A DNA stretch of 64,000 bases from an uncultured Bacteroidota bacterium (GTDB taxonomy: Bacteria > Bacteroidota > Bacteroidia > Flavobacteriales > Schleiferiaceae). The notes beneath the pieces are model-generated. The model searched no databases, was not told the origin of the DNA, and saw nothing but the letters and a program-made list of their open reading frames with translations. Made by a program: the position numbers and the translations under genes. This document shows, piece after piece, positions 28,505 to 52,692 of this stretch. Every line of letters starts with the position of its first letter. Within the stretch, counting starts at the first letter, position 1. Location of the stretch: positions 1-64,000 of the forward strand of contig CAJXNI010000011.1 in assembly GCA_913057235.1 (NCBI GenBank), read 5' to 3'.

Positions 28505-28576
28505 CGCAGGTTAATTATATTCGCTGTTCTTAGCCCTATGAGGCCGTCTACTGAACAATCTTTTAACCCGTTAAGA

Positions 28577-31500
28577 ATGAAGCGAATAATTGGTTTAGCC
28601 TTTTGCTTGGTGTGGATAACCACCCAAATAAAGGCGCAAGAAATCACCTTTGTACGCAAGGCAACCCTTGATCCTGAGGCGCAAAACATGGCTTTTAGCT
28701 ACCAAGGTGATATTTGGATTCTAAACTTTGAGAAAAATATTCCCCAGCGGCTCACGCTGCATGAAGCCTATGAAAGTAATCCTGTTTTTAGCCCTTCCGG
28801 GGATGAGCTAGCTTTTAGCGGCAACCGTTTTGGCAGTAATGACCTCTATAAAATATCGGTAAAAGGCGGCCAACCGCAAAGGCTTACTTACCATAGTGCC
28901 AATGATCAAATAAGTGATTGGGCCGCCAATCAAGAAATATTCTTCTCTACTGAGCGGGCCTTTCAACAAGTAGAGTGGGATGCTGAAATTTACAGCCTTC
29001 CTGAGGGAGCGCACACACCCAGTCGTAAGCTGGATGCATTAGGAGAAATGGCTGTGCAGTCGCCTAACGGCCGCTACATAGCGTTTGTAAGGGGCGCTTG
29101 CCGTGTTACCCGCGAGAATTACGTGGGCCCGGCTAACAAGGAAATTTGGCTGTACGATTTGCAAAACGAAAGCTATCGCCAAATCACCCAAAATGAGGTG
29201 AATGATATTTTACCCCGTTTTAAAGACAATGAAACGCTCCTGTACCTTAGCAGTATAGATGGTCGTTATGGAATTGTAGAACAAAGGCTTAGCGGTGATG
29301 AAGATTTAAAAGTATTGGTGCATAATCCTAAAGAAGGGGTGCACTTTTTTGATTATGCCGCTGAAACATTGCTGTATGCGCAGGGCCCAAAGTGGTTTAA
29401 AAAGGCAAAGTCTGACGCCCCAAAAAGTATTGAGATTAACATTCCAACTGACTACCGATTTTATCCCATAGAAAAGAAAACCTACGGCAATCGCATGGCT
29501 AATTATGCCATTTCGCCTTCAGGCGAATATGCTGCCCTGGAAATTAGAGGCGAGATCTTTTTAACCGAGTTAGACGAGGAAGAATCACGCACCATTAATA
29601 TTTCAGATCACCCATTTTACGACCGCGAGCCAACCTGGTTAAATGATAGCACGCTACTTTACACCTCAGACCGTAAGGACGGTACCTACAGCTTTTACCA
29701 GGTGAGCTCTACCGACCCCAAGAAGCCGGCCCTTTTTAAAAGCCTCAAGCGTGAACAGAAATTGGCGCTAAAAGAGCAGTATGATTTACGCAATCCTGAG
29801 CTATCTCCCAACGGAAAAAAAATAGCGTTTACCGGAAATGGGGAAAAGTTGCTGGTGGCAGATGTGGAAGACGGAAAGCTCAGTAATGTTAAAACTTTAT
29901 TGGATGATTGGCATGGCGCAGATGGGGTGGCCTGGAGTCCTGATAGCCGTTACCTGGCCTACCATTACAGCGATTTGAATTTTAACCGTGAGGTCTACAT
30001 TCAAGATGCCGAAGGCAAAATGGAGCCGGTGAACGTGAGCATGCACCCCGGTTCAGACTACAGCCCCTTCTGGAGCCCGGATGGGTCTAAGCTGGGTTTT
30101 GTTTCAAACCGTAACAATAGAGATGCCGATATTTGGTTTGTTTGGCTGAAGGAAGAAGATTGGCTTAAATCTGAAAAAGAGCGCGAAGAAGGATACTACT
30201 TTGAGGAGCCTGAGGAAGAAGAGGCTGATAAAGATGACAAGGAGAAAGACCAAAAAGAACCGGAAATGGAGCCGGTTCAAATAGACTTCGAGAACATTTA
30301 CGACCGTTTGCAGCAAGTAACTTCACTCAATGGCAATGAAGGAAATCTGCTCATTAGTAAAGATGGGGAAACCTTCTATTTCACCTCCTACAATGCCCTC
30401 ACCAAAGGCTCTGATTTGTACAGTGTACAGTATGACCGTAGCGAGCTAAAACAAATCACCAAAGGCGGAATCAGCCCATCTGGCCTGCGCTGGGACAAAG
30501 ATGTGAAGGGAATGTATTACGTTAGTAAGGGCCGGCTTTACCATTTAGATCCTGCCAAAGGTAAGCCTACGCGCTACCCACATAAGGCCAAAATGACCAT
30601 TGACAAGCACCAGGAACGACAGCAGGTTTTTGACGAAGCCTGGAAATTACTGGATCAAAACTTTTACGACCCTGATTTTCATGGAAATGACTGGTCGGCC
30701 CTCAAGGCCAAGTACCGCCCCTGGGCCCTGGCCGCCAGCACCGATCAGGATTTCCGCCATGTATTTAATCTCATGCTAGGCCGCCTCAATGCCAGTCACA
30801 TGGGTATTTATGGCGGTTCACCCGAAGATGTGCAGCGCGAACAAACCGGCCTGCTGGGCATAGAAGTGAAGCCCGTAACAAATGGGGTTGAGGTTACGCG
30901 CGTAATAGCTCGTTCTCCCGCTAACCGCACTAAAAGTGAGCTTGCCGTAGGTGATGTTATTACAGCCGTAAATGGCCAAGAAATGGGCAACCATAACTTT
31001 TACGCCCTGTTAGAAGATGCTACTGAAGAACCGGTTTTACTGCAAGTTGAAGGGCAGAAAGGGCAACGCGAAATAGTGATTAGACCCACCCGCAGCCTAA
31101 GCACCGAGTTGTATGAAGAATGGGTAGCCGAGCGCAAGCGCCTCACCGAAAAGTACAGCCAGGGTCGCCTGGGTTACATCCACATCAAAAGCATGAATAA
31201 AACCAGCTTTGAGCGCTTTGAAAGGGAGCTCATGGCCAGCGGCCATGGCAAAGAAGGCATTGTAATTGACGTGCGCTTTAATGGCGGTGGTTGGACTACC
31301 GACTATTTGATGGCCGTGCTAAACGTGCGCCAGCATGCCTACACCGTGCCCCGCGGAGCTACTGAGAATCTCTCTAAAAATCATCCCAAATTCAGTGAGT
31401 ACTACCCCTACAGTGAGCGCTTGCCTTTGGCAGGATGGACCAAGCCCTCGGTGGCCATGTGCAATGAAAGTTCGTATTCCAATGCAGAAATTTTCTCCCA

Positions 31501-31774
31501 TGCCTACAAAAGCTTGGAGCATGGCACCTTGGTGGGGCAACCTACTTTTGGCGCGGTAATCTCAACCGGTGGGGCGCGGCTTTTAAACGGCTCCTATGTG
31601 CGCATGCCCTTCCGGGGATGGTATGTGAAAAGCACCGGCCAAAACATGGAAAATGGTCCGGCTGTACCGGATGTGTTAGTTGAAAATCACCCTACCTCTA
31701 AGGCATCGGGCGAAGACCCCCAACTAAAGAAGGCGGTGGAAACCCTTTTGAATGAAATGAGTACAAACAATTAA
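28577..31774 (+). CDS. Tricorn-like S41 family protease
   Basis: This is a large exported protease of about 1065 residues. It has a signal peptide (RIIGLAFCLVWITTQIKAQ), an N-terminal beta-propeller of WD40-like/TolB-type repeats (for example NPVFSPSGDELAF, VAWSPDSRYLAY, SPFWSPDGSKLGF), an acidic linker rich in Glu/Asp near 535-565, a PDZ-like domain (LLGIEVKPVTNGVEVTRV near 765) and a C-terminal S41 peptidase domain (NGGGWTTDYL near 900, NESSYSNAEIFS near 960 with the likely Ser nucleophile). It follows the tricorn core plan with an export signal added. TATATTCG at 28516-28523 resembles a promoter. The C1 peptidase gene follows by 15 bases. Confidence 0.88.
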   Translation: MKRIIGLAFCLVWITTQIKAQEITFVRKATLDPEAQNMAFSYQGDIWILNFEKNIPQRLTLHEAYESNPVFSPSGDELAFSGNRFGSNDLYKISVKGGQPQRLTYHSANDQISDWAANQEIFFSTERAFQQVEWDAEIYSLPEGAHTPSRKLDALGEMAVQSPNGRYIAFVRGACRVTRENYVGPANKEIWLYDLQNESYRQITQNEVNDILPRFKDNETLLYLSSIDGRYGIVEQRLSGDEDLKVLVHNPKEGVHFFDYAAETLLYAQGPKWFKKAKSDAPKSIEINIPTDYRFYPIEKKTYGNRMANYAISPSGEYAALEIRGEIFLTELDEEESRTINISDHPFYDREPTWLNDSTLLYTSDRKDGTYSFYQVSSTDPKKPALFKSLKREQKLALKEQYDLRNPELSPNGKKIAFTGNGEKLLVADVEDGKLSNVKTLLDDWHGADGVAWSPDSRYLAYHYSDLNFNREVYIQDAEGKMEPVNVSMHPGSDYSPFWSPDGSKLGFVSNRNNRDADIWFVWLKEEDWLKSEKEREEGYYFEEPEEEEADKDDKEKDQKEPEMEPVQIDFENIYDRLQQVTSLNGNEGNLLISKDGETFYFTSYNALTKGSDLYSVQYDRSELKQITKGGISPSGLRWDKDVKGMYYVSKGRLYHLDPAKGKPTRYPHKAKMTIDKHQERQQVFDEAWKLLDQNFYDPDFHGNDWSALKAKYRPWALAASTDQDFRHVFNLMLGRLNASHMGIYGGSPEDVQREQTGLLGIEVKPVTNGVEVTRVIARSPANRTKSELAVGDVITAVNGQEMGNHNFYALLEDATEEPVLLQVEGQKGQREIVIRPTRSLSTELYEEWVAERKRLTEKYSQGRLGYIHIKSMNKTSFERFERELMASGHGKEGIVIDVRFNGGGWTTDYLMAVLNVRQHAYTVPRGATENLSKNHPKFSEYYPYSERLPLAGWTKPSVAMCNESSYSNAEIFSHAYKSLEHGTLVGQPTFGAVISTGGARLLNGSYVRMPFRGWYVKSTGQNMENGPAVPDVLVENHPTSKASGEDPQLKKAVETLLNEMSTNN

Positions 31775-33006: not shown

Positions 33007-33037
33007 GCCCTGATGCCTTTTGGTATCGGGGCTTTTT
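33007..33037 (+). terminator. Intrinsic terminator before the polyketide gene cluster
   Basis: GCCCTGATGCC pairs with GGTATCGGGGC (11 bp with two G-T pairs, TTTT loop) and is followed by TTTTT. It separates the protease pair from the biosynthetic cluster, which begins only 14 bases later with a GTG start. Confidence 0.8.
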
Positions 33038-33050
33038 AATTAGCAGAAAA

Positions 33051-34184
33051 GTGAGTAACCAAAATCATTATCAAATTGCCGTTGTTGGAGCAGGCTTAGG
33101 GGGTTTAGTCAGTGCTTTTGAGCTTGCGCAGAAAGGCTTTAAGGTACTACTGCTAGAGCGGAAAAGTTTACCGCGCCATAAGGTGTGTGGAGAGTACATT
33201 TCCAATGAAGTAAAACCCTTGCTGGAAAGCTTTGGTCTTTTTCCACAAGATTTGGATTTACCCTCTATCACTCAGTTACAACTTACCGCCCAAAACGGAC
33301 AACAGGCGCAAAGCCCCTTAGCTCTGGGAGGGTTTGGGGTGAGCCGCTATTACTTAGACCAGTTTTTGGCACAAAAAGCCGAAGAAGCAGGAGCCCAAAT
33401 CTTACTAAAAACGGAAGTTACCAACATTCAATTCGAAGGTAGGCAGTTTGAAGTCAGCACAGCTAAAGGGGGCGTTTTTACCGCAGACCTGGTGATTGGT
33501 GCCCACGGCAAACGTTCTAAGTTGGATAAGAACTTGGGGCGCAAATTCATGAAACAGAAAACCCCTTACGTAGCCGTAAAACAGCATTTTAAAGCAGACA
33601 TTCCCGGAGAATTGGTAAGTCTGCACAATTTTGAGGGCGGCTATTGCGGAGTTTCTCAAGTGGAAGAGCAGCGCGTGAACGTGTGTTATTTAACCACCAC
33701 CCGTACTTTTAATGCGTATGATTCCATTGCAGATTACCAACAAAAGCACCTGGTGAAAAACCCTTTTCTTAAAACCTTTTTTGCCAAAGCTGAACCACTT
33801 ATGCCCAAGCCTTTAGTGATTTCACAGGTTAATTTTAGTGCTAAGCCCCAGGTTGAAAATCACGTCCTGATGGTAGGCGATGCGGCCGGCTTAATTCACC
33901 CGCTCTGCGGTAATGGCATGGCCATGGCCATTCATGCTGCGCATTTGGCCAGCTATTACATTGCTGCATTTTTAGAAAAGAAAATGAACCGGGCTGAGAT
34001 GGAACTGGCCTATCAGCGGGCCTGGAAGGAACAATTTGCACAGCGTTTGCGCTTTGGCCGTATAGCCAGCCATACTTTAGGTAAAAGTACCTTGAGCAAC
34101 ACAGCCGTGCGGTTAGCTAAAAGCTGGCCGGCCCTACTGCACGGAGTGAGCCGTTTTGCCCATGGCCAATATATTTCGGTGTAA
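33051..34184 (+). CDS. FAD-dependent oxidoreductase of the type III PKS cluster
   Basis: The 377-residue flavoprotein has the PHBH/geranylgeranyl-reductase fold. The dinucleotide motif VVGAGLGGL is at 10-18 with ERK about 20 residues later. HKVCGEYIS near 43-51 and GDAAGLIHPLCGNGMAMAI near 275-293 resemble the geranylgeranyl reductase type. The middle motif reads VIGAHGKRSKL with His for the Asp of classical hydroxylases. It could hydroxylate an aromatic ring, as SrsC does in Streptomyces phenolic lipid synthesis, or reduce an isoprenoid-like chain. It opens the ten-gene cluster with a GTG start right after a terminator. Confidence 0.82.
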   Translation: MSNQNHYQIAVVGAGLGGLVSAFELAQKGFKVLLLERKSLPRHKVCGEYISNEVKPLLESFGLFPQDLDLPSITQLQLTAQNGQQAQSPLALGGFGVSRYYLDQFLAQKAEEAGAQILLKTEVTNIQFEGRQFEVSTAKGGVFTADLVIGAHGKRSKLDKNLGRKFMKQKTPYVAVKQHFKADIPGELVSLHNFEGGYCGVSQVEEQRVNVCYLTTTRTFNAYDSIADYQQKHLVKNPFLKTFFAKAEPLMPKPLVISQVNFSAKPQVENHVLMVGDAAGLIHPLCGNGMAMAIHAAHLASYYIAAFLEKKMNRAEMELAYQRAWKEQFAQRLRFGRIASHTLGKSTLSNTAVRLAKSWPALLHGVSRFAHGQYISV

Positions 34185-34239
34185 ACCCATTTAGAAAACC
34201 TCATGTTTAAATGAAGTTAATTGCGAAGACTTGTACTCT

Positions 34240-34818
34240 ATGAAAAACTTATTTCTCCTTCTGTTCCTTAGCAGTTCCATGGCCGCCCCTTGGCAATTGA
34301 AAAAAGAGCAAGCCGGCATTAAGGTTTACACCCGCTCAGTAGCAGGCTCAAACCTTGATGAGTTTAAAGGCGTGGCTACCTTACCCGTAAGTCAAGAGGC
34401 CATTGTAGCCGCCCTGAAAGACGTAGCCTCTTTGTCCAAATGGCTTCCAGACAACAAAGTGGCGCGTGTGCTCAAACAATCGCCCAATCATATTTACTAT
34501 TATTCAGTTACGGATGCTCCTTTTCCCGTAGACGACCGAGACGCCATTTTACACTTTCATTTTCGGCCGGAAGGCAAAAATATGCGGGTTAGTATTGAGG
34601 GTTTACCCGATTATTTACCCGAAGAAGAAAACCGGGTGCGGATACCAAGCCTCAAAGGTTTCTGGTATTTAGAACCCAAGGGAGCTGAGCAAACGCAAGT
34701 AACCTATCAGGTTTTAGCTAACCCCGGGGGGAGCATACCTGCCTGGTTAGCCAACGCTACAGCCGTAGACCAGCCTTTTGAAACGTTGGCTAACCTCAGA
34801 GACTATCTTTCTAAATAA
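34240..34818 (+). CDS. START/SRPBCC lipid-binding-like protein with signal peptide
   Basis: The protein is about 192 residues. A hydrophobic N-terminus (MKNLFLLLFLSSSMAA) looks like a signal peptide, which would place it in the periplasm. The rest has the START-like pattern WQLKKEQAGIKVYTR, DVASLSKWLPDNKVARVL near 65-80, YYYSVTDAPFPVDDRDAI and GFWYLEPKGAEQTQVTYQ. Such domains bind hydrophobic ligands. Inside this cluster it could carry the lipid product or help shape it. That role is inferred. The start at 34240 gives the cleaner signal; an in-frame ATG at 34231 also exists. Confidence 0.78.
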   Translation: MKNLFLLLFLSSSMAAPWQLKKEQAGIKVYTRSVAGSNLDEFKGVATLPVSQEAIVAALKDVASLSKWLPDNKVARVLKQSPNHIYYYSVTDAPFPVDDRDAILHFHFRPEGKNMRVSIEGLPDYLPEEENRVRIPSLKGFWYLEPKGAEQTQVTYQVLANPGGSIPAWLANATAVDQPFETLANLRDYLSK

Positions 34819-34827
34819 CCTTAGAAT

Positions 34828-35532
34828 TTGCTATTTCACTTTTCACATAGAAGCCTAAAACCTGAAATACTGGACGACTTTGAGTTGCAGGGAAACAATT
34901 TGGCAGAAAATTTAAAGGAGCTGGAGTGGGTAAACCGCTATCTGGGTGGCTACAGCCAATTAGGGCAGGCCTTGCAGGAGGTAGTGGAAACACAATCAAA
35001 TCAAAAACACTGGCACGTGGCTGATATTGGCTGCGGGGGAGGCGATACTTTACGCTATCTCGCAAAAAAGACGGCCGCCTGGCCCCAGAAGTTTCGGTTA
35101 ACCGGGGTAGACGCCAATGCTCACGCCATAGCCTACGCTAAGTCCCTTTCAGAAGGGCTAAACATTGGCTACCAAAAAGCCATGCTTAGCCCAGAACTAT
35201 TGAAAGCCATGCAGGCCGATGTGGTGCTGTTCAACCTTTTTCTTCATCATTTTAAGGATGAGGAGATTATTGAATTTTTAAGCACCTGCCAAAAGCAAGG
35301 CGTTAAAGTAATTATTACCGATTTGGAAAGAAGCAAACTGGCTTATTTCCTGTTTAATATGCTCACTAGAATCATAAAATTCTCCCATATTAGCAGACAT
35401 GATGGACTCCTGAGTATCCAAAAAAGTTTTACGCAAAAAGATTGGGCCTACCTGTTTCACAAATCTAATTACAGCCGTTACACGGTGAAATGGCGTTGGG
35501 CCTTTCGCTGGGTCTGTTGCTTGAATCACTAG
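34828..35532 (+). CDS. SAM-dependent methyltransferase of the type III PKS cluster
   Basis: This is a 234-residue class I methyltransferase. The SAM motif ADIGCGGGDTLRYLA is near 65-79, the acidic residue after strand 2 lies in LTGVDANAHA near 90-99, and the motif around strand 4 reads DVVLFNLFLHHF near 130-141. A conserved C-terminal segment contains HISRHDGLLSIQKSF. Genes of this type sit next to type III PKS genes in many Bacteroidota, presumably O-methylating the product. The start is a TTG at 34828, 9 bases after the previous stop. No ATG lies nearby in frame. It is 7 bases from the PKS gene. Confidence 0.85.
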   Translation: MLFHFSHRSLKPEILDDFELQGNNLAENLKELEWVNRYLGGYSQLGQALQEVVETQSNQKHWHVADIGCGGGDTLRYLAKKTAAWPQKFRLTGVDANAHAIAYAKSLSEGLNIGYQKAMLSPELLKAMQADVVLFNLFLHHFKDEEIIEFLSTCQKQGVKVIITDLERSKLAYFLFNMLTRIIKFSHISRHDGLLSIQKSFTQKDWAYLFHKSNYSRYTVKWRWAFRWVCCLNH

Positions 35533-35539
35533 ATACCGA

Positions 35540-36604
35540 ATGATGAAGACTAAAATATTAGCTACCGCCAAGGCCCTTCCGGCTCATACGCGCTCCACCC
35601 AAGAAATTCTCCCTTTCGTAGAAGCATGGCTAGATGGGCAGCCTGAGCGTTTTCAAAAGAAAGTACTCCGCATTTTCAAATATGCCCAGGTAGACAGGCG
35701 CTACAGCATTATGTCGCCCGAAGAGGTTTTTACCGCCACTAGCTTTGAAGACAAAAACGCGTTGTACGCAGAGCGCATGACCGATTTAGCCGAAGAAGCC
35801 CTGGCGAAAGCTTTAGAAAAAGCCGGGGTCAAGCCCGATGAGTTGGACTACATCATCACCACTTCCTGCACCGGCATAATGATTCCTTCGGTGGATGCCT
35901 ACCTCATCAATCGCCTGGAAATGCGGCAAGATATTATACGCATGCCTATCACGGAAATGGGCTGTGCAGCCGGAGTTTCAGCTCTTATTTACGCCCATGA
36001 TTTACTGCGGGCGCAACCGCAAAAAAGAGCGGCCATTGTTTCGCTTGAATCACCTACCAGTACTTTTCAGCTCAATGATTTTAGTATGACCAATGTGGTA
36101 AGTGCGGCCATTTTTGGCGATGGGGTAGCGGCTGCCATTTTGGGTCCTCAGCCCGATGCCCTAAAACCGGTTATTCAAGACCATGGCATGTACCACTTTT
36201 ACAATGAGCTGCATATGATGGGGTTTAACCTTAGAAACACGGGCCTGCAAATGGTTTTAGATCCTGAAGTTCCGGCCAAAATTGAAGAGCATTTTGAAAG
36301 GATTCTTTTTCCATTTTTAGAGCGCAACCAATTAAGCGTGGCTGATGTAGAGCACTTTATTTTTCATCCGGGAGGAAAAAAAATTGTGCAAATGGTAGAG
36401 AGCTTATTGCATAAATTAGGCAAAAACATAGATGCCACTAAAAAGGTATTGCGAGAATACGGGAACATGAGCAGCGCCACGGTACTCTATGTTTTGGAGG
36501 AGTATCTAGAACACAAAACCATTGAAGAGGGCGAGCGCGGATTGATGCTCAGTTTTGGACCCGGTTTTTCAGCGCAACGCCTACTTTTACGCTGGGAAAA
36601 ATAA
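35540..36604 (+). CDS. Type III polyketide synthase (chalcone synthase-like)
   Basis: The homodimeric enzyme condenses an acyl starter with malonyl-CoA and cyclises the chain to a resorcinol, pyrone or related ring. The catalytic triad is complete: Cys142 in TEMGCAAGV, His276 in FIFHPGGKK and Asn309 in YGNMSSATV. The C-terminal LSFGPGFSAQ loop corresponds to the GFGPG motif. At 354 residues it is a single-domain enzyme of usual size. The adjacent acyl carrier protein and fatty-acid enzymes suggest that it accepts a long acyl starter. Starter and ring type cannot be read from sequence by eye. Translation starts at one of two adjacent ATGs (35540, 35543). Confidence 0.93.
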   Translation: MMKTKILATAKALPAHTRSTQEILPFVEAWLDGQPERFQKKVLRIFKYAQVDRRYSIMSPEEVFTATSFEDKNALYAERMTDLAEEALAKALEKAGVKPDELDYIITTSCTGIMIPSVDAYLINRLEMRQDIIRMPITEMGCAAGVSALIYAHDLLRAQPQKRAAIVSLESPTSTFQLNDFSMTNVVSAAIFGDGVAAAILGPQPDALKPVIQDHGMYHFYNELHMMGFNLRNTGLQMVLDPEVPAKIEEHFERILFPFLERNQLSVADVEHFIFHPGGKKIVQMVESLLHKLGKNIDATKKVLREYGNMSSATVLYVLEEYLEHKTIEEGERGLMLSFGPGFSAQRLLLRWEK

Positions 36605-36609
36605 AACCT

Positions 36610-37575
36610 ATGAATCCATTGTTTCAGCAAATAATCATTAGCACTGCTAAACTTTACTATGGTAAAAATGCCAGGGGTAAAGAGCAGCTAAAACAGTGGG
36701 CCATAGAGCTACGAGATGAACTTAAAGATGCCGTATATCTGGCCGTGGGAGTGGCCTCGGCCGCCTTTGGTTTAGAGTCTTTTTTAATACCCAATGGTTT
36801 TATAGACGGAGGAGTCACCGGTATTTCACTCATTACTAATGTGGTTACTCAAATACCTATAAGCATTCTACTGGTAGTGCTTAACCTGCCCTTCCTAATT
36901 ATGGGTTGGCGCACCGTTTCTTCGCGCTTCGCATTAAAAAGTATTGGCAGTATTTTTCTGCTGGCGCTTACCGTACAGTTTGTGCACTTTCCGGTAGTCA
37001 CGGATAATGAACTCCTGGTAGCCGCTTTTGGCGGATTGTTTTTGGGCCTGGGCATTGGTATGGCCGTTAGGGGTGGCGGAATTTTAGACGGTACCGAGGT
37101 TTTGGCCATTTACCTAAGCCGCAATTCCAGCCTAACCGTGGGCAACATCATCCTTATTTTTAACATTCTCATTTTTGCTGCGGGCGCGTATTTTATTTCA
37201 GTAGAAACGGCCCTTTTTGCTATACTTACCTACTTTACGGCTGCTAAAACCATTGATTTTGTAATAGACGGCATTGAAGAGTATATGGGAGTTACCATAA
37301 TTTCACCTTTTAATGAAGAAATTCGTAAGGCCATTGTAAATCATTTAGGCCGGGGTTGCACCATTTACCGCGGAAGAAGTGGTTATGCTCCCACGGGTTC
37401 AGCACTTAAGGATATTGATATTTTATACACCGTAATTACCAGGCTGGAGATGAGCAAGCTCAAAACTGAAATCAATAAAATTGACGAAGAGGCTTTTGTA
37501 ATTATGAACAGCATTAAAGATACCAAAGGGGGCATGGTAAAAAAACGTCCCATTTCAAAATTTAAGAAGGCATGA
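36610..37575 (+). CDS. YitT-family membrane protein (DUF161/DUF2179) within the PKS cluster
   Basis: This is a 321-residue inner-membrane protein. About five to six hydrophobic segments lie between 40 and 225 (for example ISILLVVLNLPFLIMGW, LLVAAFGGLFLGLGIGMAV). The C-terminal cytosolic DUF2179 domain contains GRGCTIYRGRSGYAP near 265. YitT proteins are thought to be transporters of unknown substrate. It begins 5 bases after the PKS stop and overlaps the next gene by 4 bases, so it is in the middle of the operon rather than a bystander. A role in exporting the product or a precursor is only a guess. Confidence 0.85.
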   Translation: MNPLFQQIIISTAKLYYGKNARGKEQLKQWAIELRDELKDAVYLAVGVASAAFGLESFLIPNGFIDGGVTGISLITNVVTQIPISILLVVLNLPFLIMGWRTVSSRFALKSIGSIFLLALTVQFVHFPVVTDNELLVAAFGGLFLGLGIGMAVRGGGILDGTEVLAIYLSRNSSLTVGNIILIFNILIFAAGAYFISVETALFAILTYFTAAKTIDFVIDGIEEYMGVTIISPFNEEIRKAIVNHLGRGCTIYRGRSGYAPTGSALKDIDILYTVITRLEMSKLKTEINKIDEEAFVIMNSIKDTKGGMVKKRPISKFKKA

Positions 37576-38348
37576 AACCGGTAGCACTCATTTTAGGAGC
37601 AAGCAGCGGTATGGGTTACGCTTCGGCTGAACTTTTAGCCCAAAATGGCTATGACCTCATTTTGGTCTACCGGGCTCGCAAAGCGGAGCGCCAAAAAGTG
37701 GAGGCTAGCTTTGAAAGCTGGCGCCATGAAATTGGCATTCGTATTTGGGCTTACAACCAAGATGCTTTGGATGAGGCCGTCCGCAGTGCCATTTTACAAG
37801 AGGTACAAGCCAATGGCTTGCAAGTGAAATTGCTACTACACAGTTTGGCCAAGGGAAATCTAAAACCCATGGTAGCCCAAAATGAGGGGGAGCGGCTTTT
37901 AGCACCTCAGGACTTTGAGCTTACTCTTAATGCCATGGCCACCAGCTACTACACTTGGGTGAGTAGTTTGTATCAAAAAAGCCTGCTGGCTCCAAGCGCT
38001 AGTTTTTTAGCCCTTACCAGTGAAGGCGCCCGCAAAGCATGGTCGCATTACGGAGCAGTTTCAGCCGCTAAAGCGGCCCTGGAAGCCATAAACCGGCAGC
38101 TGGCGCTGGAGTTGGGTGCATTGGGCCATCGAGCAAATATTTTACAGCCAGGAGTAACAGATACTCCGGCTTTACGGCTGATACCGGGTAGTGAGCGCTT
38201 GCTAAAGTTGGCCGAAAAACGAAATCCCCGTGGGGAACTAACCACTCCTGAAAAGGTAGCGCAGGTGGTTCTGCTCATGGCATCGCGCGAAAGCGAATGG
38301 ATCAATGGCGCGGTAATACCGGTAGACGGTGGTGAATCTATTGCATGA
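37572..38348 (+). CDS. Enoyl-ACP-reductase-like SDR (FabI/FabL type)
   Basis: This 258-residue short-chain dehydrogenase has LILGASSGMGYASAELLA at 6-23. The active site is Tyr160 and Lys167 in HYGAVSAAKAALEA, that is Y-x6-K as in FabI/FabL enoyl reductases, not Y-x3-K of ketoreductases. LLHSLAKGNLKPM near 88-100 matches the VHS-A region of enoyl reductases. It probably reduces an enoyl-ACP on the cluster's own carrier protein. The start overlaps the previous gene (ATGA) and the stop overlaps the next. Confidence 0.82.
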   Translation: MKPVALILGASSGMGYASAELLAQNGYDLILVYRARKAERQKVEASFESWRHEIGIRIWAYNQDALDEAVRSAILQEVQANGLQVKLLLHSLAKGNLKPMVAQNEGERLLAPQDFELTLNAMATSYYTWVSSLYQKSLLAPSASFLALTSEGARKAWSHYGAVSAAKAALEAINRQLALELGALGHRANILQPGVTDTPALRLIPGSERLLKLAEKRNPRGELTTPEKVAQVVLLMASRESEWINGAVIPVDGGESIA

Positions 38349-38794
38349 AAACCAAGGAAGAAATACTAGCTCTTTTGCCTTACGGACCTGGATTTACTTT
38401 TGTAGACGAGCTCAATTATCTGGATGAGCAGCGGGTAGAAGGGCACTATCACTTTAAGCCCGAGAGCTATTTTTACGCGCACCATTTTAAAGACAAACCG
38501 GTTACCCCTGGGGTAATTTTAACGGAGTGCATGGCGCAAATCGGGCTGGTAAGTTTAGGTCTGTTTTTACTCCTGAAAGAAAGGCCAGAAGAGCCCGAAA
38601 CCAAGCCTTTGAAAATTGCCTTTACGGAGGCCCAGGTGCAGTTCAAAAAGCCGGTGTTACCCGGTGAAACGGTATCGGTAACGGCAGAAAAAATATATTG
38701 GCGCATGGGAAAACTGAAAGTGAAGACCGAAATGCGAATTGACTCCAATAAGGTTGTGTGTAGCGGTACTTTAAGTGGAATGATTTTTAAATGA
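38345..38794 (+). CDS. FabZ-like 3-hydroxyacyl-ACP dehydratase
   Basis: This is a 149-residue hotdog-fold protein. The catalytic His is in YAHHFKDKPVTPGVILTE (His47) and the Glu follows 14 residues later (Glu61, LTECMAQIG), exactly as in FabZ. It would dehydrate 3-hydroxyacyl-ACP during chain building, although a role in final priming or ring formation cannot be excluded. It is coupled by 4-base overlaps to both neighbours and is distinct from the housekeeping fabZ, which should lie elsewhere. Confidence 0.87.
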   Translation: MKTKEEILALLPYGPGFTFVDELNYLDEQRVEGHYHFKPESYFYAHHFKDKPVTPGVILTECMAQIGLVSLGLFLLLKERPEEPETKPLKIAFTEAQVQFKKPVLPGETVSVTAEKIYWRMGKLKVKTEMRIDSNKVVCSGTLSGMIFK

Positions 38795-40080
38795 TGGCTT
38801 CCAAAAACCACCGAGTAGTTATTACGGGCTTGGGCATTTGTGCGCCCAACGGGGTAGGCATGACCAACTTTGAGGAAGCCTTGCGTGCTGGGCGTTCAGG
38901 GATTCAACACATTAAAGAGCTGGAAGAATTAAACTTCCGTTGTCAAGTGGGCGGCATACCCCCTCTAAATTCTGAAATTTTAGAGCAGAACTTCAGCCCT
39001 CTGGAGCTTAAAAGACTCAGTGCCAAGGGTGTAATGTACGGTATACTTGCTGCCTTAGAGGCCTGGCAAGATTCGGGTTTGCCATTGCCCAATCCTGACG
39101 ATGAACCGCGTTGGCAATGGGGTACTGTTTTTGGGACGGGTATGAGTGGAGTGCAAACTTTGCGGGAGGCTATTTACAAAACGGATGAAGGGAAAGTAAA
39201 ACGCTTAGGCGGATCTGTAGTGGAGCAGACCATGCCCAGTGGCATTAGCGCATTTTTAAGCGGAAAATTAGGTTTGGGCAATTGGGTCACCAGCAACTCC
39301 AGTGCCTGTAGTACGGGTACTGAATCCATCATTATGGCGGCTGATCACATCCGGCAAGGCCGCGCTGAAATAATGCTGGCTGGTGGCTGTGATGCAGATG
39401 GCCCCTACGTTTGGGGAGGATTTGATGCTATGCGCGTGCTTAGCAAAAATTTTAATGAAGCGCCCACCAAGGCCAGTAGGCCCATGGCTGCTGATGCCAG
39501 TGGCTTTGTGCCGGGCAGTGGTGGTGGAGCCTTGGTTTTAGAATCTTTGGCTTCAGCCGAAAAACGAGGCGCCACCATTTACGGAGAAGTGGCGGGCGGT
39601 TATGTGAATAGTGGTGGCCAGCGTGGCAATGGCAGCATGACGGCTCCTAATAACCTAGGCACCCAAAAGTGTATTTCGGGTGCCATGGCGCAAGCCCAAG
39701 TGAAACCCCAGGAAATTGATCTGATTTGTGGCCACCTCACTTCAACCATGGGCGATGTGCTGGAAATCCAAAACTGGAGTACTGCTTTAGGTTTAAAAGG
39801 GAAGGATTTTCCCAAAATCAATGCCCTAAAGTCGCTAACCGGCCACTGCCTAAGCGCAGCCGGGGCTATTGAATCGGTTGCGGCAATCTTGCAGTTGAAA
39901 CAAAACTGGGCGCACCCTAGTTTAAACTGCCAAAACTTACACCCCGACATTTTAGCACAAATTGATGCGAATTGTGTAGTACGTGAAACCGAAGTCTTTC
40001 CTATGCAGGTGGTGGCCAAATCAAGCTTTGGCTTTGGCGATGTAAACTCCTGCGTGATTTATAAAAGTTGGAAATTATGA
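38791..40080 (+). CDS. Beta-ketoacyl-ACP synthase, FabF-like, of the PKS cluster
   Basis: This is a 429-residue thiolase-fold condensing enzyme with a complete Cys-His-His triad: Cys173 in SNSSACSTGTE, His315 in CGHLTSTMGD and His352 in LTGHCLSAAGAIES. The sequence before the first His is unusual (LICGHLT instead of the NAHGT of FabF). It would extend acyl-ACP with malonyl-ACP. No separate chain-length-factor partner is present, so it probably works as a homodimer. It overlaps the dehydratase gene and the ACP gene by 4 bases each. Confidence 0.88.
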   Translation: MMASKNHRVVITGLGICAPNGVGMTNFEEALRAGRSGIQHIKELEELNFRCQVGGIPPLNSEILEQNFSPLELKRLSAKGVMYGILAALEAWQDSGLPLPNPDDEPRWQWGTVFGTGMSGVQTLREAIYKTDEGKVKRLGGSVVEQTMPSGISAFLSGKLGLGNWVTSNSSACSTGTESIIMAADHIRQGRAEIMLAGGCDADGPYVWGGFDAMRVLSKNFNEAPTKASRPMAADASGFVPGSGGGALVLESLASAEKRGATIYGEVAGGYVNSGGQRGNGSMTAPNNLGTQKCISGAMAQAQVKPQEIDLICGHLTSTMGDVLEIQNWSTALGLKGKDFPKINALKSLTGHCLSAAGAIESVAAILQLKQNWAHPSLNCQNLHPDILAQIDANCVVRETEVFPMQVVAKSSFGFGDVNSCVIYKSWKL

Positions 40081-40334
40081 CCGAACAAGAAATACAAGAT
40101 CAGCTAAAAACAGTGATTGAGCCCTATGTGCAAAATCAAGAGGCTTTTGAGAATCTCACCAAAGAAACCCAACTAATGGAAGATTTGGAGGTAAACTCGG
40201 CTCACCTGGTGGATATTATTTTAGACCTGGAAGAGGCTTTTGATGTAGAGATTGATGACGAAGCTGCCGAGAAGATGCTCACGGTTGGGGCGGCTTTAAA
40301 CATTGTGCAAGAGTTGCTTAACGCGAAGGATTGA
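40077..40334 (+). CDS. Acyl carrier protein of the PKS cluster
   Basis: This is an 85-residue acidic carrier protein. The phosphopantetheine attachment site is Ser41 in LEVNSAHLVDI, a variant of the usual DSLDxVE, with Asn before the Ser and no Asp. Helix 3 is strongly acidic (EEAFDVEIDDEAAEK). The ATG at 40077 forms an ATGA overlap with the ketosynthase stop. The next gene encodes the transferase that would load it. The changed site suggests a dedicated carrier rather than the housekeeping AcpP. Confidence 0.88.
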   Translation: MTEQEIQDQLKTVIEPYVQNQEAFENLTKETQLMEDLEVNSAHLVDIILDLEEAFDVEIDDEAAEKMLTVGAALNIVQELLNAKD

Positions 40335-40939
40335 TTGGCAATGATTTAATTTATCTGCCAGACTGGCCGCAGCGTCAGGGCCTGCGTTTGAAACGCTTTC
40401 GGGCTAAAGTTTTTACGGCCAAAGAATTATCCTTAATTGAGGAAGCTGAGCAGCCTTATTTTATTGAGGCTTTGCTGTGGAGCGTTAAGGAAGCAGCTTA
40501 CAAAGTATGGCTTAAGGCCACCCATAGGCCGGCCTACAATCCAAAAAATTTTGAGGTACAAACGGAGCTTTCACCATCGGGCGGAAGCCAGGCCAAACCC
40601 ACAGAAGGCTTAGTTTCATTTGAGGACGGTAGCCTTTCTCCTTATCCATTTTACAGCACTCAAGAAAATGATTTTTTGGCCACCTACGTTTTGCAGCAGA
40701 CCGAGCAGCCTTTTTCAGAATCTTTTTGGCGAACCAAACAACAGTGTATTCTGCATCAGGCCCGCACCTGGAAACTGCAAAAAAACACTTTAAACATTCC
40801 ATACGCTATTTACCAGAACCGGTACCTAGAACTGAGTCTAAGTCATGATGGAGGCCTATTCTGGTACATCTGGTTTACAGAGCCTCAGCCACTACCAACC
40901 CAGGAATTTTTTAGTCAAACCAATAATCACAAGAATTAG
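40331..40939 (+). CDS. 4'-phosphopantetheinyl transferase
   Basis: The 202-residue enzyme moves phosphopantetheine from CoA to the carrier protein's serine. The Mg-binding GNDLIYL at 3-9 and the signature WSVKEAAYKVW near 50-60 are clear. Translation seems to start at TTG 40331, overlapping the ACP stop codon (TTGA), and no ATG gives the conserved N-terminus. It is the last gene of the ten-gene run and completes a self-sufficient carrier-protein module. Confidence 0.87.
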   Translation: MIGNDLIYLPDWPQRQGLRLKRFRAKVFTAKELSLIEEAEQPYFIEALLWSVKEAAYKVWLKATHRPAYNPKNFEVQTELSPSGGSQAKPTEGLVSFEDGSLSPYPFYSTQENDFLATYVLQQTEQPFSESFWRTKQQCILHQARTWKLQKNTLNIPYAIYQNRYLELSLSHDGGLFWYIWFTEPQPLPTQEFFSQTNNHKN

Positions 40940-44910: not shown

Positions 44911-46695
44911 ATGGCCAAAAAACATACTTACAACTTCGGTTTATTGGGGAACTGCTCTTTTTTAGCCTTGGTAGGCTTAGATACCAATGTTGAATGGATG
45001 TGCTTACCCCGTTTTGATAGTAGCTTCACCTTTGGGCGACTTGTGGCGGGTGATAAGGGCGGAGAGTTTTCCATTAAACCAACCACCTCTGAATTTCAAA
45101 GCAGCCAGCAATACCAGTACAACACCAATATTTTAGAAACTGAGGTACGCACCGCACAAGGCAGTTACCGCGTCACTGATTTTGCTCCGCGCTTTTTTCA
45201 ATTTGAGCGTTATTACCGGCCTTTAATGCTCATTCGTAAAATTGAGCCCATGCACGGTTTCCCGGAAGTAGCCATAAATTGCCGGCCCGTTGGTGGTTAT
45301 GGCGAACAGGAGCTGAGTTCTGAAACGGGCAGCAATCACATCCGTTACAACGGTTTGCCTGAGACGCTGCGGCTAAGCACCGATATTCCCTTAAATTACT
45401 TGAAAAGAGGTGACGGTTTTGTGCTTACCCAAACCCATTACCTCATTTTAACCTACGGAGTGCCTTTGGAGGGCCCTATTGCGCAAACGGCTGAAAACTT
45501 TTTGGCACGTACTTGCCAGTATTGGCAAAAGTGGGTGAAGAGCACCAGTATTGGCACCCTTTACCAAAATCAGGTCATTCGCTCGGCACTTACTTTAAAA
45601 ATTTGTCAGTATGAAGATACAGGAGCCATCATTGCGGCCCCTACCAGCAGTCTACCAGAATCGCCTGGTAGCACGCGTAACTGGGACTACCGTTACTGCT
45701 GGATGCGCGATACTTTTTATACCCTAAACGCCTTTAACAATATTGGCCATTTTGAGGAAATGGAAAAATACTTTGCCTTCATTACCAATATTCCTATGAA
45801 GGATGCCCAACGCGTACAGCCGCTCTATGGAGTAGGTGGGGAGAGCCAATTAACCGAGTTGGAATTACCCTTACCGGGATACCAGAACAACCAGCCCGTG
45901 CGGGTGGGTAATGATGCCTATACCCACATTCAAAATGATGTGTACGGGCAAATCTTACTGGCTATTTTGCCGCTATATTTAGACAGCCGCTTTCGCGATA
46001 ACCCAGCCGCCAGTAGCGATACGCTTCTGCGCAACGTTTTGGAGAAAATGGAGTCTACCATAAATGAGGCCGATGCAGGTATTTGGGAGTTTAGAAACAA
46101 AGCCGATCACCATGCTTACACCAACCTATTTCAGTGGGCAGGCGGACAAGCGGCAGCGAAAATGGCCCGTTGGCTCAAAAAAGAAGATTTGGAGACACAG
46201 GCCCAAAAGATTACCCGTCAGGCCCAGGCATGGATTGAGAAATGTTATTTACCTGAGCGCAATGCTTACGGGCAGGGGACCCATTTCAAACACATGGACG
46301 CCAGCACGCTGCAGATGATTATAATGCAATATTTGCCCCACCATTCTCAAAAAGCCAAAGACCATCTTAAAGCTCTGGAGGAAGATTTAAAAGCAGGCAA
46401 GGGTTTGTTTTACCGCTACCGGGTGGCTGATGATTTCGGGCAACCGGAAACCACCTTTTTAATCTGTGGATTTTGGTATGCCGAGGCCCTGGCCTGCGTT
46501 GGCCGGGTAGAGGATGCCATGGCCGCTTTTGAGGAATTATTGAGCTTTAGCAATCACTTGGGTTTGTTGAGTGAAGACGTAAATGAAAAAGACGGTTCCA
46601 TGTGGGGCAATTTTCCGCAGGCCTACAGCCACGTGGGGTTGGTAAATGCGGCCACTCGCATTAACAACAAGTTGGAGAAGCCCATGTACGGCTAA
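44911..46695 (+). CDS. Glycoside hydrolase family 15 protein (glucoamylase/trehalase-like)
   Basis: This is a 594-residue cytosolic (alpha/alpha)6-barrel hydrolase with an N-terminal beta-sandwich (YNFGLLGNCSFLALVGLDTNVEWMCLPRFDS). The active-site motif NWDYRYCWMRDTFYTL is near 250-265, and the second acid region FLICGFWYAEALACVGRVEDA near 515-535 is typical. GH15 enzymes of this type act on trehalose or alpha-glucans. OtsAB for trehalose synthesis lies 3.8 kb away on the other strand, and GH15 and otsA genes are often neighbours, so a role in trehalose turnover is plausible. Confidence 0.88.
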   Translation: MAKKHTYNFGLLGNCSFLALVGLDTNVEWMCLPRFDSSFTFGRLVAGDKGGEFSIKPTTSEFQSSQQYQYNTNILETEVRTAQGSYRVTDFAPRFFQFERYYRPLMLIRKIEPMHGFPEVAINCRPVGGYGEQELSSETGSNHIRYNGLPETLRLSTDIPLNYLKRGDGFVLTQTHYLILTYGVPLEGPIAQTAENFLARTCQYWQKWVKSTSIGTLYQNQVIRSALTLKICQYEDTGAIIAAPTSSLPESPGSTRNWDYRYCWMRDTFYTLNAFNNIGHFEEMEKYFAFITNIPMKDAQRVQPLYGVGGESQLTELELPLPGYQNNQPVRVGNDAYTHIQNDVYGQILLAILPLYLDSRFRDNPAASSDTLLRNVLEKMESTINEADAGIWEFRNKADHHAYTNLFQWAGGQAAAKMARWLKKEDLETQAQKITRQAQAWIEKCYLPERNAYGQGTHFKHMDASTLQMIIMQYLPHHSQKAKDHLKALEEDLKAGKGLFYRYRVADDFGQPETTFLICGFWYAEALACVGRVEDAMAAFEELLSFSNHLGLLSEDVNEKDGSMWGNFPQAYSHVGLVNAATRINNKLEKPMYG

Positions 46696-50511: not shown

Positions 50512-52692
50512 TCACAAATCTTGCAGGCTCTTAAGCAGATTGCGCACCGCCTGGTAATCCTCTACCGAGTAGCGGGCGCGGCTGGCGCCTTTTCCAACCT
50601 TTAGGGTGTAGGCTGTTTCAGGCAGGCTGGCAAAAGTGTCTTCATCAGTGCGGTCATCACCTAAGGCCAGGGTAAAATCAGGTTCTAGTTTCTGGTGTAA
50701 TTTCTGGGCAATGGTGCCTTTGTTTACGGCATTGGGTTTTACTTCTACCACGTGGTTGCCGTGCAGTACCTGTAGCCTTTGTTGCTCCATAAAGTGCTTG
50801 AGGTGGCTGTTAAGCTCGGCACTACGCAACTCTCCTAAACCTTTTTCCACTTTGCGGTAGTGCCATACCAGCGCATGACGCTTCTCTTCTAAAAAGGACC
50901 CCGGGGTACGGTCTACGTAAAAATTAATGATTTTTCGAGCCTCTTCTTTCCACTCAGGCTGCACCAGCTCCGGGTTTAGTTGCCAGTCGGCATCTTTTTC
51001 TTTGGTCCAAATACCGTGTTCGGCCACCAGTTTTACTGGTAAGTGCGCCAGCCATTCGCCAAGGGTATCTGCCTTGCGGCCACTAATGATTACCAAGTGA
51101 TTTTTAGGGTCATTACCCAGCTCCTGCAAAAGGCTATTTAATTCCTCATCGGGCTTGCAGGCTAAAGGGTCAATGTGAAAAGGCACCAGCGTACCGTCAT
51201 AATCTAGCAATAATAGCCTAGTGGCACTTTTCTGGTATTCTTTTAAAAGTTGTGCTTGCCGCGATGGTGCAAGCTGCAGTGTATCAAGGCGGTGTTGTTT
51301 GCTTTTCACCCATTGCAGGTTGCCAATAAAGAGTTCTACCCAATTAAAAATGGTGTACTTCTGCAAACTTTGCTGCATCACTTCAATATGCTGGCGCTGC
51401 TCTTCTTTAGGCATGGTGAGGGCCTTTTTAAGGGTATCGGCCATAGCCTGTAAATCATTAGGGTTAACCAACAAAGCGTCTGATAGCTCTTTGGCTGAAC
51501 CTGCCATTTCACTTAAAACCAACACCCCGGTTTTATGCGGCCGCGAGGCAATGTATTCCTTGCAAACCAGATTCATACCATCCCGCAAAGGGGTAATCAT
51601 AGCTACGTCACTCAAGCGGTAAAAAGCCGACAGGGCCGGTAGGGGGTAGCTGCGGTAGAAATAGTGAATGGGGGTCCAGCTAATGCGTCCGTATTTAGAG
51701 TTTATTTGGCCTACCAATTGGTCTACTTCCTCTTTTAGTTCTTGATAACTGGGCACGGCATCGCGCGAGGGAACCACTATCAGCAGTAGTGATACTTTTT
51801 CTTGGTACTGCGGGTTTTGTTCTAAAAACAGGTCAAAAGCTTGCAAGCGCTTGGGAATACCTTTGGAGTAATCGAGGCGATCTACCGATAGAACCACCTG
51901 TGTGGCGCCAAAGCTTTTACGGTACCGCTCCATCCGTTCTTCGGTTGGAGAACTTACTGCGTTTTGCGCAAACTTTTCATAGTCAATACCCATGGGCAGT
52001 GAGTCCGCCACTACTAAACGGTCTTCCAACTGAATCTCATTGCGGTTGTAATCATAGCCCGCTAAACGGTGTACCGAACTAAGAAAGTGGCGCATATCAT
52101 CATAGGTATGAAAACCCACATAATCAGCGCCTAGCATGCCATCTAGCAGCGCCCTGCGCCAGGGGAGCATTCTAAAAACCTCGTAAGAAGGGAAGGGGAT
52201 GTGCTGAAAAAAACCAATGGTGATATCAGGTTGCGCCTGGCGTAGCATGCGGGGAACCAGCAAAAGTTGATAATCATGCACCCACACAATGTCGCCTGGC
52301 TCTAGGCTTTCTAAAATACGGTTGGCAAATTTTCGGTTAGCGGCTTCATAGGCCCGCCACATTTCCTCGCTGTAGCGGATGTACTGCACAAAATAATGAA
52401 AGGCGGGCCAAAGGGTTTGGTTACTAAAACCCAGGTAGTACTCATCCACTTCCTGCGGAGTGAGAAATACGGGTTTCATGCTTTCCCGGGCTAAGCCAGC
52501 CGTAATTTCCCCTTTTACCGAATCTTCCTCAAAGGCTGCTCCGGGCCAGCCAATCCAAATGTTGTTGCCCTCTTTGTAAATGCTGCCCAGGCCGGTGGCC
52601 AAACCGCCTTCACTGGCCTTAAAACGGTAGCCTTCCTGATTTCGCTCAATTCTAACCGGTAGGCGGTTAGAAACAATGATGGTTTTTCCCAT
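50512..52692 (-). CDS. otsAB: Bifunctional trehalose-6-phosphate synthase/phosphatase
   Basis: This is a 726-residue fusion. The N-terminal GT20 domain (about 1-470) makes trehalose 6-phosphate from UDP-glucose and glucose 6-phosphate: VSNRLPVRI, ASEGGLATGL, VWVHDYQLLLVPRMLR near 130, RLDYSKGIPKR near 255 and DGMNLVCKEY near 355. The C-terminal HAD phosphatase (about 485-726) starts LLLLDYDGTLVPF and contains ALGDDRTDEDTF near 675. Fused forms are common in Bacteroidota. The ppa gene upstream makes pyrophosphatase. A GH15 hydrolase lies nearby. Confidence 0.94.
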   Translation of the reverse strand: MGKTIIVSNRLPVRIERNQEGYRFKASEGGLATGLGSIYKEGNNIWIGWPGAAFEEDSVKGEITAGLARESMKPVFLTPQEVDEYYLGFSNQTLWPAFHYFVQYIRYSEEMWRAYEAANRKFANRILESLEPGDIVWVHDYQLLLVPRMLRQAQPDITIGFFQHIPFPSYEVFRMLPWRRALLDGMLGADYVGFHTYDDMRHFLSSVHRLAGYDYNRNEIQLEDRLVVADSLPMGIDYEKFAQNAVSSPTEERMERYRKSFGATQVVLSVDRLDYSKGIPKRLQAFDLFLEQNPQYQEKVSLLLIVVPSRDAVPSYQELKEEVDQLVGQINSKYGRISWTPIHYFYRSYPLPALSAFYRLSDVAMITPLRDGMNLVCKEYIASRPHKTGVLVLSEMAGSAKELSDALLVNPNDLQAMADTLKKALTMPKEEQRQHIEVMQQSLQKYTIFNWVELFIGNLQWVKSKQHRLDTLQLAPSRQAQLLKEYQKSATRLLLLDYDGTLVPFHIDPLACKPDEELNSLLQELGNDPKNHLVIISGRKADTLGEWLAHLPVKLVAEHGIWTKEKDADWQLNPELVQPEWKEEARKIINFYVDRTPGSFLEEKRHALVWHYRKVEKGLGELRSAELNSHLKHFMEQQRLQVLHGNHVVEVKPNAVNKGTIAQKLHQKLEPDFTLALGDDRTDEDTFASLPETAYTLKVGKGASRARYSVEDYQAVRNLLKSLQDL

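Follow-up and report, generated by a model that had tools for sequence, protein, structure and literature searches.

In Azotobacter, a type I fatty acid synthase (FAS) is coupled to a type III polyketide synthase (PKS) with direct acyl transfer from acyl carrier protein (ACP) (PMC6274091, PMC3098273; statements on published systems draw here on excerpts of the sources cited). The clusters pkqABC, of Mycobacterium smegmatis and Streptomyces sp. MNU77, and srsABC, of Streptomyces griseus, combine a PKS with a methyltransferase and an oxidoreductase and yield alkyl benzoquinones, which act as electron carriers in M. smegmatis (PMC9927152, PMC5916927), and the planctomycetal PKSs of a methyltransferase/oxidoreductase/PKS trio make pentadecyl- and heptadecylresorcinol (PMC10896814). 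Type III PKSs account for 10.74% (PMC10734526) and 9% (PMC7440613) of the predicted clusters of Flavobacteriaceae, with no product named in the available parts of these two sources, and our searches of open-licence papers gave no account of a type II FAS cassette joined to a type III PKS in any member of the Bacteroidota. Here we analyse such an operon, at 33051-40939 of a 64,000-nucleotide stretch of DNA (the window; positions 1 to 64,000 of CAJXNI010000011.1, our contig C11) from an uncultured member of the Schleiferiaceae, whose 2.83 Mb genome is rated 99.97% complete. The explanation that we consider best, with moderate confidence, is that a swap-in type II FAS supplies the tail to a resorcinol-type PKS, with methylation and oxidation to follow.

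Like the ars system of Azotobacter vinelandii (ArsA/ArsD with ArsB/ArsC; PMC6274091, PMC3098273), the operon has a dedicated FAS beside a type III PKS. This parallel, drawn in the initial annotation of the window, holds for the presence of FAS genes in the PKS operon and for the intact catalytic triad but not for the class of FAS: the Ars FAS is a type I multidomain enzyme, whereas the operon encodes five small type II proteins without a ketoreductase or a malonyl/acetyl transferase. The operon also differs from ars in having a pair of tailoring enzymes (ArsB and ArsC are compared by description and are absent from our tree). With srs and pkq it shares a type III PKS, a methyltransferase and a flavin oxidoreductase, and in this outline the suggested likeness to the Srs trio stands; it does not extend to the type of the methyltransferase or the clade of the PKS. 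The operon methyltransferase is a class I enzyme (Methyltransf_25), whereas that of our srs/pkq proxy, locus L121 of Streptomyces, is an ICMT, and the L121 PKS groups with PKS11 (support 100/100), apart from the clade of the operon PKS, which we call T1; srs and pkq themselves are judged through this proxy. The SrsB methyltransferase is of the ICMT type.

The hidABC operon of the cyanobacterial hierridins and the planctomycetal trio likewise place a methyltransferase, an oxidoreductase and a type III PKS in one operon (PMC10896814), but their order is methyltransferase-oxidoreductase-PKS, whereas that of the window is flavin enzyme-methyltransferase-PKS (HidA-C being compared by description), and no ketosynthase is mentioned for either in the available part of the source. 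A planctomycetal cluster is reported to include a gene for a lipid/isoprenoid-binding protein (PMC10896814), at a guess of the YceI type. The flexirubin and dialkylresorcinol clusters (flx, dar) resemble the operon in combining a resorcinol lipid with FAS II-like genes in Bacteroidota (PMC3992019); unlike in the operon, their ring comes from DarA/DarB and not from a type III PKS, and they contain polyene genes. Against the DarB model the operon PKS scores 32.9 bits, below the cut-off of 550. CylI, the type III PKS of the cylindrocyclophanes, takes an acyl substrate, gives a resorcinol (PDB titles) and has the second-nearest fold to that of the operon PKS. The two enzymes nevertheless share 25% identity, and CylI has Ser where T1 has Pro. 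The partners of CylI are type I PKSs. We file the operon as a variant of FAS-coupled type III PKS lipid synthesis that is not ars, srs/pkq or hid.

Conservation of the FAS-PKS unit

We searched for the PKS in 60 genomes and in 198 genomes of the phylum that are at least 90% complete, both samples including the genome of the operon. Identities were bimodal, with values of 60-78% in 8 of the 59 and 15 of the 197 other genomes and the next value at 37%; the high-identity group is T1, and all lower-identity PKSs are termed T2. In both samples, the genomes with a close PKS (at least 60%) were identical to those with the operon ketosynthase (KS; at least 53%), amounting to 21 distinct genomes, as G038 and G053 occur in both samples and the operon's own genome is excluded. 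In 20 of these genomes, no more than about 4 kb separates KS and PKS, and in the remaining one, G007, they fall on separate contigs (C143, of 6.1 kb, and C161). A KS of 46-49% identity, remote from any T1 PKS, occurs in four genomes outside this set. Independence of KS and PKS is rejected for the T1 clade at these thresholds, and the possibility raised at the outset, that the FAS and PKS genes are independent runs, is thus ruled out for T1.

A scan of genome contigs yielded at least 573 confirmed PKS relatives, of which the best 80 by PKS identity were kept. Together with seven other loci and the window, these make up 88 T1 loci (L016, on the same contig as L023, was left out before counting), and 75 of them, with at least 2.3 kb before and at least 7 kb after the PKS, form a full-context set, the 13 short-flanked loci being left out. 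Among the best 80 of at least 573, the nearest named PKS relative is that of an uncultured Cryomorphaceae bacterium (L023, 76%). The full order flavin adenine dinucleotide (FAD) enzyme, methyltransferase, PKS, short-chain dehydrogenase/reductase (SDR), dehydratase, KS, ACP and phosphopantetheinyl transferase (PPTase) was found in 50 of the 75 full-context loci, window included; the same order occurred without the SDR in 16 and without the PPTase in 4 (in these counts, other genes may stand between those listed). Overall, the SDR is absent in 19/75 and the PPTase in 8/75. By score the KS is absent in 4/75, but in L046 it is split over two frames, which leaves three loci truly without KS and 72 with a KS beside the PKS. 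The PKS, methyltransferase and FAD enzyme are all present in 73/75, and among the 88 loci the FAD enzyme was found in 83, the methyltransferase in 87, the SDR in 65 and the PPTase in 75.

Because the order recurs in dozens of loci, it is not the product of chance. The conserved unit, which is widespread in Bacteroidota, consists of the FAD enzyme, the class I methyltransferase, the type III PKS, the dehydratase, the KS and the ACP, with the SDR and the PPTase as variable members. The remaining two of the ten genes have no match in the other 88 loci scanned (profiles of one seed sequence each), such that co-occurrence of all ten families, as had been anticipated, fails: the START-like and YitT genes are confined to the window among 89 loci. 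The YitT gene is a window-only insertion into the operon, and the START-like protein is a window-only accessory and a possible periplasmic lipid carrier. Insertions occur elsewhere as well: in five Polaribacter loci (L058, L072, L084, L088 and L091), a REP-associated-type transposase gene (recognised by eye) takes the position of the SDR, between PKS and dehydratase, and at 8971-11637 of L015 genes for a STAS-like protein and a PAS histidine kinase (also by eye) stand between PKS and SDR. L080 carries a T1 PKS without any partner gene.

Judged by their catalytic residues, the operon enzymes look active. The complete Cys-His-Asn triad reported for the PKS is intact in the window and kept in 88/88 orthologues. 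In the KS, the Cys and the first His are kept in 80/80 and the second His in 79/80, with one gap; the His/Glu pair of the dehydratase is kept in 84/84, the Tyr and Lys of the SDR in 65/65, with Y-x6-K spacing, and the Asp of the PPTase in 75/75. Y-x6-K spacing is typical of FabI and FabL. The ACP serine is kept in 80/80 orthologues, always inside an NSA motif; the usual ACP motif is DSL.

The cassette is a partial, dedicated elongation set. Pfam and NCBIfam recognise no ketoreductase, malonyl transacylase or FabH among the ten operon genes, and the SDR is optional in the loci counted above, so that 'self-contained', as the module had been called, is not an apt description. Lacking its own ketoreductase and malonyl transferase, the unit must draw on the primary type II FAS. 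The genome has one FabF over the cut-off, the primary one (contig C5, 593 bits), to which the operon KS, scoring below the cut-off, is a second; it also has one FabD over the cut-off (contig C6) and, among eleven FabG-like matches, one FabG over the cut-off (contig C2). All three lie outside the operon. The chalcone-synthase model has a single match over its cut-off in the whole genome.

Relationships of the PKS and the tailoring enzymes

We built PKS trees with 62 and with 64 rows; T1, represented in each by 26 of its 88 loci, is set apart by a branch with support of 100/100, its stem measuring about 1.0 changes per column. In these unrooted trees, three groups join at one node: T1; PKS18, the Ectocarpus enzyme, Steely1 and the trio PKSs (100/99); and, more weakly supported (84/32 and 89/57), PKS11, CylI, the ICMT-linked and the RppA/PhlD enzymes. 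The approximately unbiased test rejected the union of T1 and the 13 trio PKSs in one clade (p-AU 1.5e-5), the tested group having been named after the first tree was seen and excluding PKS18, the Ectocarpus enzyme and Steely1. The rows annotated as RppA and PhlD form a branch of their own (100/96), with T1 not inside it. The expectation that the PKS is not of a small-molecule type is borne out in that respect, but the enzyme does not group with the lipid synthases either.

At the position of PKS18 Cys205 and CHS Thr194, Pro is present in 26/26 T1 rows and in 0/38 others, which have Cys (35), Ser (2) or Leu (1). At the position of CHS Gly256, provisionally equated with that of ArsB Trp281, T1 has Phe or Tyr, the srs/pkq-like row and PKS11 have Trp, and CylI has Leu. 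An AlphaFold2 model of the PKS from nine sequences (mean predicted local distance difference test score, pLDDT, 85.5) matched the solved folds of PKS11 (Z 42.8; 2.3 A, 345 residues aligned), CylI (41.5), THNS (39.5) and the Ectocarpus enzyme (39.2), with many others near Z 38, and Foldseek ranked PKS11, CylI and THNS identically. ArsC (3VS8) does not figure among the listed matches of the PDB sequence searches or of the fold searches. Both leading matches, which precede THNS by 2.0-3.3 Z units, handle long acyl chains, and the modelled fold thus lends support, not proof, to an acyl substrate.

For comparison with T2, we hand-picked 18 loci from 77 genomes with a low-identity PKS. None of the 18 has FAS genes of the set nearby; a methyltransferase is near 8 and an FAD enzyme near 6. 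In the T2 trios, which we label hid-like ourselves, the FAD enzyme and the class I methyltransferase are homologous to those of the operon and the PKS clade differs. The window FAD enzyme is 42-44% identical to those of L107-L110 and L119, against a median of 44% to eight flavobacterial and weeksellacean T1 loci, and the methyltransferase 31-38% against 36%, whereas the PKS is 27-30% identical to the former and 64% to the latter. (L019, at a contig end, is left out of the FAD and methyltransferase comparisons.) Since the tailoring pair of these five T2 loci is as close to that of the window as the flavobacterial T1 pair is, while the PKS is distant, either the PKS or the tailoring pair appears to have been replaced. 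More distant pairs are found in L112 and L130 (FAD enzyme 20-21%, methyltransferase 23-28%) and in L012-L014 (34-41% and 28-31%). In trees with 24 T1 loci each, the branch between T1 and T2 FAD enzymes is 0.14 long (87/88), and the T1 methyltransferases are not one group (two changes, weakly supported).

Of 11 T2 loci from Bacteroidota that include a methyltransferase gene, 8 have a UbiA-like gene beside the PKS (by tblastn, with Pfam UbiA in the four checked); neither of the plasmid T2 loci L129 and L130 has one (tblastn), nor do any of the 87 other T1 loci or the window. Within the family of the window, G002, G020 and G029 carry a T2 trio with UbiA and no T1 PKS or close KS, and six others carry T1. 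The UbiA-bearing T2 loci (L107, L109, L110, L111, L119, L147, L148 and L149) have a class I methyltransferase and mostly an FAD enzyme, and are candidates for a prenylated polyketide pathway, perhaps to a quinone, distinct from that of the window. A different PKS-methyltransferase arrangement is seen in L124 (CP031730.1), a plasmid labelled Stenotrophomonas rhizophila with a PKS-ICMT stretch; its PKS is nearly identical to that of the Lysinibacillus plasmid L128 (NZ_CP130332.1), and the L124 record may be mislabelled.

Proposed pathway and its alternatives

The cassette also occurs away from the type III PKS. Among the 101 genomes of family f17, the cassette KS was found in 9 (E up to 1e-110) and DarB in 17 (E up to 1e-100), 14 of the latter over the cut-off. 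Four of the nine belong to genus g59 and have all five cassette genes with a divergent DarB gene about 3 kb away (loci L133/L146, L140, L141 and L142); among the matches listed, they are the only g59 genomes with DarB, and G263, of the same genus, has neither. The remaining five carry the T1 operon and come from a single other genus. In G154, also of f17, a run of SDR, dehydratase, KS, ACP and PPTase genes is divergent to DarB (635 bits, cut-off 550) and DarH genes. The g59 cassette may provide the acyl chain for that resorcinol or pigment. That the cassette always accompanies either a type III PKS or a dialkylresorcinol synthase in the f17 sample is our main ground for proposing a resorcinol-type ring and an acyl-tail role. 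In L132, L134 and L135, related dehydratase-KS-ACP sets have genes for a family 2 glycosyltransferase and a GNAT-like protein as neighbours, possibly in a separate glycolipid or N-acyl lipid pathway.

We are confident that the FAS and PKS halves of the operon serve one pathway, and consider it likely that the PKS receives the acyl chain built by the cassette; on balance, we favour a resorcinol as the ring, later oxidised and methylated. The PPTase, proposed as the activator of the operon's ACP, would modify its NSA-type site. The KS and dehydratase would then build a particular acyl chain on the ACP, with ketoreduction and malonyl transfer supplied by enzymes of primary metabolism. Where the SDR is present, as the proposed enoyl reductase (optional within the family), the chain would be saturated; where it is absent, the chain would be unsaturated, or the enoyl reductase would come from primary metabolism. 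The PKS would take the acyl group off the ACP and add malonyl units to form an alkylresorcinol-type ring, from which the methyltransferase (proposed to methylate the ring at O or C) and the flavin enzyme (proposed as a ring oxygenase) could make a methylated hydroxy-alkylresorcinol, hydroquinone or quinone. At distances of up to 9 kb from the PKS, a YceI-type protein is encoded in 29/87 loci, an MMPL exporter in 17/87 and both in 15/87 (one label of each confirmed by Pfam). In these relatives, the two proteins may handle the lipid outside the cytoplasm, a task that perhaps falls to the START-like protein in the genome of the operon. The FAS cassette would be a swap-in tail module, as the tailoring pair elsewhere serves a FAS-free PKS, often beside a UbiA prenyltransferase.

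Several observations weigh against this reading. No sister of T1 can be named from the trees and the clade holds no characterised member in our set, for which reason the ring type is argued from context. The Pro at the active site, peculiar to the T1 rows, possibly signals an unusual product, and the residue at the CHS Gly256 position was dropped as a predictor of ring type, since CylI, which makes a resorcinol, has Leu and PKS11, which makes a pyrone, has Trp. The database loci are the best 80 of at least 573 by PKS identity. Three full-context T1 PKSs (L053, L071 and L080) have no KS, with relics, assembly breaks or other uses as candidate explanations. In f17, 13 of the 17 DarB genomes, from other genera, have no close cassette KS. 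In another family, G102, G133 and G182 have a related KS set (46-48%) accompanied by glycosyltransferase and GNAT genes (with Pfam applied to two of these genomes), and the cassette is therefore not tied to resorcinols everywhere. Moreover, if UbiA is the source of the tail in T2, the ring there need not bear a long acyl chain, in which case the shared tailoring enzymes say less about the tail.

A single pathway might instead lead to a 4-hydroxy-alkylpyrone, that is, a tri- or tetraketide closed as a lactone and then methylated and hydroxylated. PKS11, an alkylpyrone synthase, is the best match of the operon PKS in both sequence and fold, and a single residue can switch the ring type of ArsB/ArsC (PMC6274091); however, the UbiH- and UbiG-like matches of the tailoring enzymes (below cut-offs) suit a phenol better, and in genus g59 this cassette is found with DarB, so that we regard a pyrone as unlikely, though the most plausible of the alternatives. 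We give still less credence to a reversed order, by the logic of aryl polyenes, in which the PKS would make a small aromatic unit for attachment to the ACP and elongation by the KS and dehydratase into an aryl-capped chain. A KS and dehydratase without an obligatory enoyl reductase do resemble the flexirubin polyene genes (PMC3992019), the SDR being absent in 19/75 loci, and the best NCBIfam match of the PKS is DpgA, below the cut-off. Yet no ligase or ammonia lyase was recognised by eye among the families that recur in at least 20/87 loci, the FabI/FabL-like reductase is kept in 56/75, and the closest folds are those of long-chain enzymes.

Equally improbable, in our judgement, is that one transcript serves two pathways, the trio making a phenolic from ordinary acyl-CoA and the cassette a separate lipid or secondary fatty acid. 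Each half does exist without the other: cassette-like sets lack an adjoining type III PKS in G102, G133 and G182 and in the DarB genus, and the cassette accompanies 0/18 low-identity PKS loci. Against this, the link between T1 and the cassette is nearly absolute (21/21 genomes; 72/75 loci), genes of the operon overlap, and the nine f17 genomes with the cassette pair it with a type III PKS (5) or DarB (4).

The operon may account for part of the flavobacterial type III PKS clusters and gives that part a testable pathway, with the Pro for Cys in the PKS and the NSA motif of the ACP as diagnostic marks. It also suggests that phenolic lipids obtain their tails from exchangeable modules. Should the product be a quinone, the polyketide electron carriers described from mycobacteria and Streptomyces (PMC9927152) would extend to Gram-negative Bacteroidota. 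More speculatively, and with considerable doubt, one might envisage a polyketide-quinone family of Bacteroidota with a type III PKS ring that shares UbiH-like and UbiG-like tailoring, is held in the membrane by either of two interchangeable tails, from UbiA prenylation in one lineage and from a dedicated type II FAS in that of the operon, and provides redox carriers or antioxidants beside menaquinone.

Gene features of the operon and the surrounding window

All ten plus-strand genes of the initial annotation are present as open reading frames, which fill 33051-40939, and their labels mostly agree with Pfam and NCBIfam; that of the START-like protein is marginal, and that of the ACP comes from NCBIfam only, below cut-offs (Table 1).

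Table 1. Features of the operon and its upstream flank, with the model matches on which their labels are based
Feature	Position	Strand	Basis
Terminator-like hairpin between upstream peptidase gene and operon	33007..33032	+	11 pairs, 7 G-C, then TTTTT
FAD-dependent oxidoreductase/hydroxylase (UbiH / geranylgeranyl-reductase superfamily)	33051..34184	+	PF01494 (FAD_binding_3) 75.9 bits; TIGR02032 138 bits, below cut-off
START-like protein, N-terminal signal-like stretch (by eye)	34231..34818	+	PF01852 22.4 bits against cut-off 22, marginal
Class I S-adenosylmethionine methyltransferase (PRK06202-like, UbiG-like)	34828..35532	+	PF13649 (Methyltransf_25) 45 bits; NF004851 132 bits, below cut-off
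Type III PKS, clade T1, Cys142-His276-Asn309	35540..36604	+	PF00195/PF02797 (chalcone/stilbene synthase N + C)
YitT/DUF2179 membrane protein	36610..37575	+	PF02588 194 bits
SDR with Y-x6-K, FabL/FabI-like	37572..38348	+	PF13561 (adh_short_C2) 144 bits; best NCBIfam match FabL 122.7 bits, below cut-off
FabZ-like hot-dog dehydratase	38345..38794	+	PF07977 (FabA/FabZ-like) 50 bits; PRK00006 63 bits, below cut-off
FabF-like ketosynthase	38791..40080	+	TIGR03150 (FabF model) 293 bits, below cut-off 494
Acyl carrier protein, NSA(H/N)LVD phosphopantetheine site	40068..40334	+	NCBIfam only: NF002148 50.8 bits, below cut-off
Phosphopantetheinyl transferase, ACPS superfamily	40331..40939	+	PF01648 33.7 bits

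The packing of the genes, described as overlaps of a few bases, is of that kind at the last five junctions, whereas 46, 9, 7 and 5 nt separate the genes at the first four. Overlaps of 4 nt were found at the YitT/SDR, SDR/dehydratase, dehydratase/KS and ACP/PPTase junctions; the KS/ACP overlap is 13 nt if the ACP starts at the TTG at 40068, or 4 nt if it starts, as is possible, at the in-frame ATG at 40077. Terminator-like sites in the region number 12, with 11.3 expected, and the upstream hairpin is thus recognised by its consensus only. The Bacteroidota-type promoter consensus has 5 matches in the window, with 4.1 expected, none of them upstream of the operon, and sigma-70-like sites number 6, compared with 10.3 in shuffled sequences.

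Upstream of the operon, at 28538-31774, the window encodes a Tricorn-like protease that combines propeller repeats with an S41 peptidase domain. A trehalase-like protein (44911-46695; below the cut-off) and a fused trehalose-phosphate synthase/phosphatase (50512-52692; 988 bits, over the cut-off) are encoded within a span of 8 kb.

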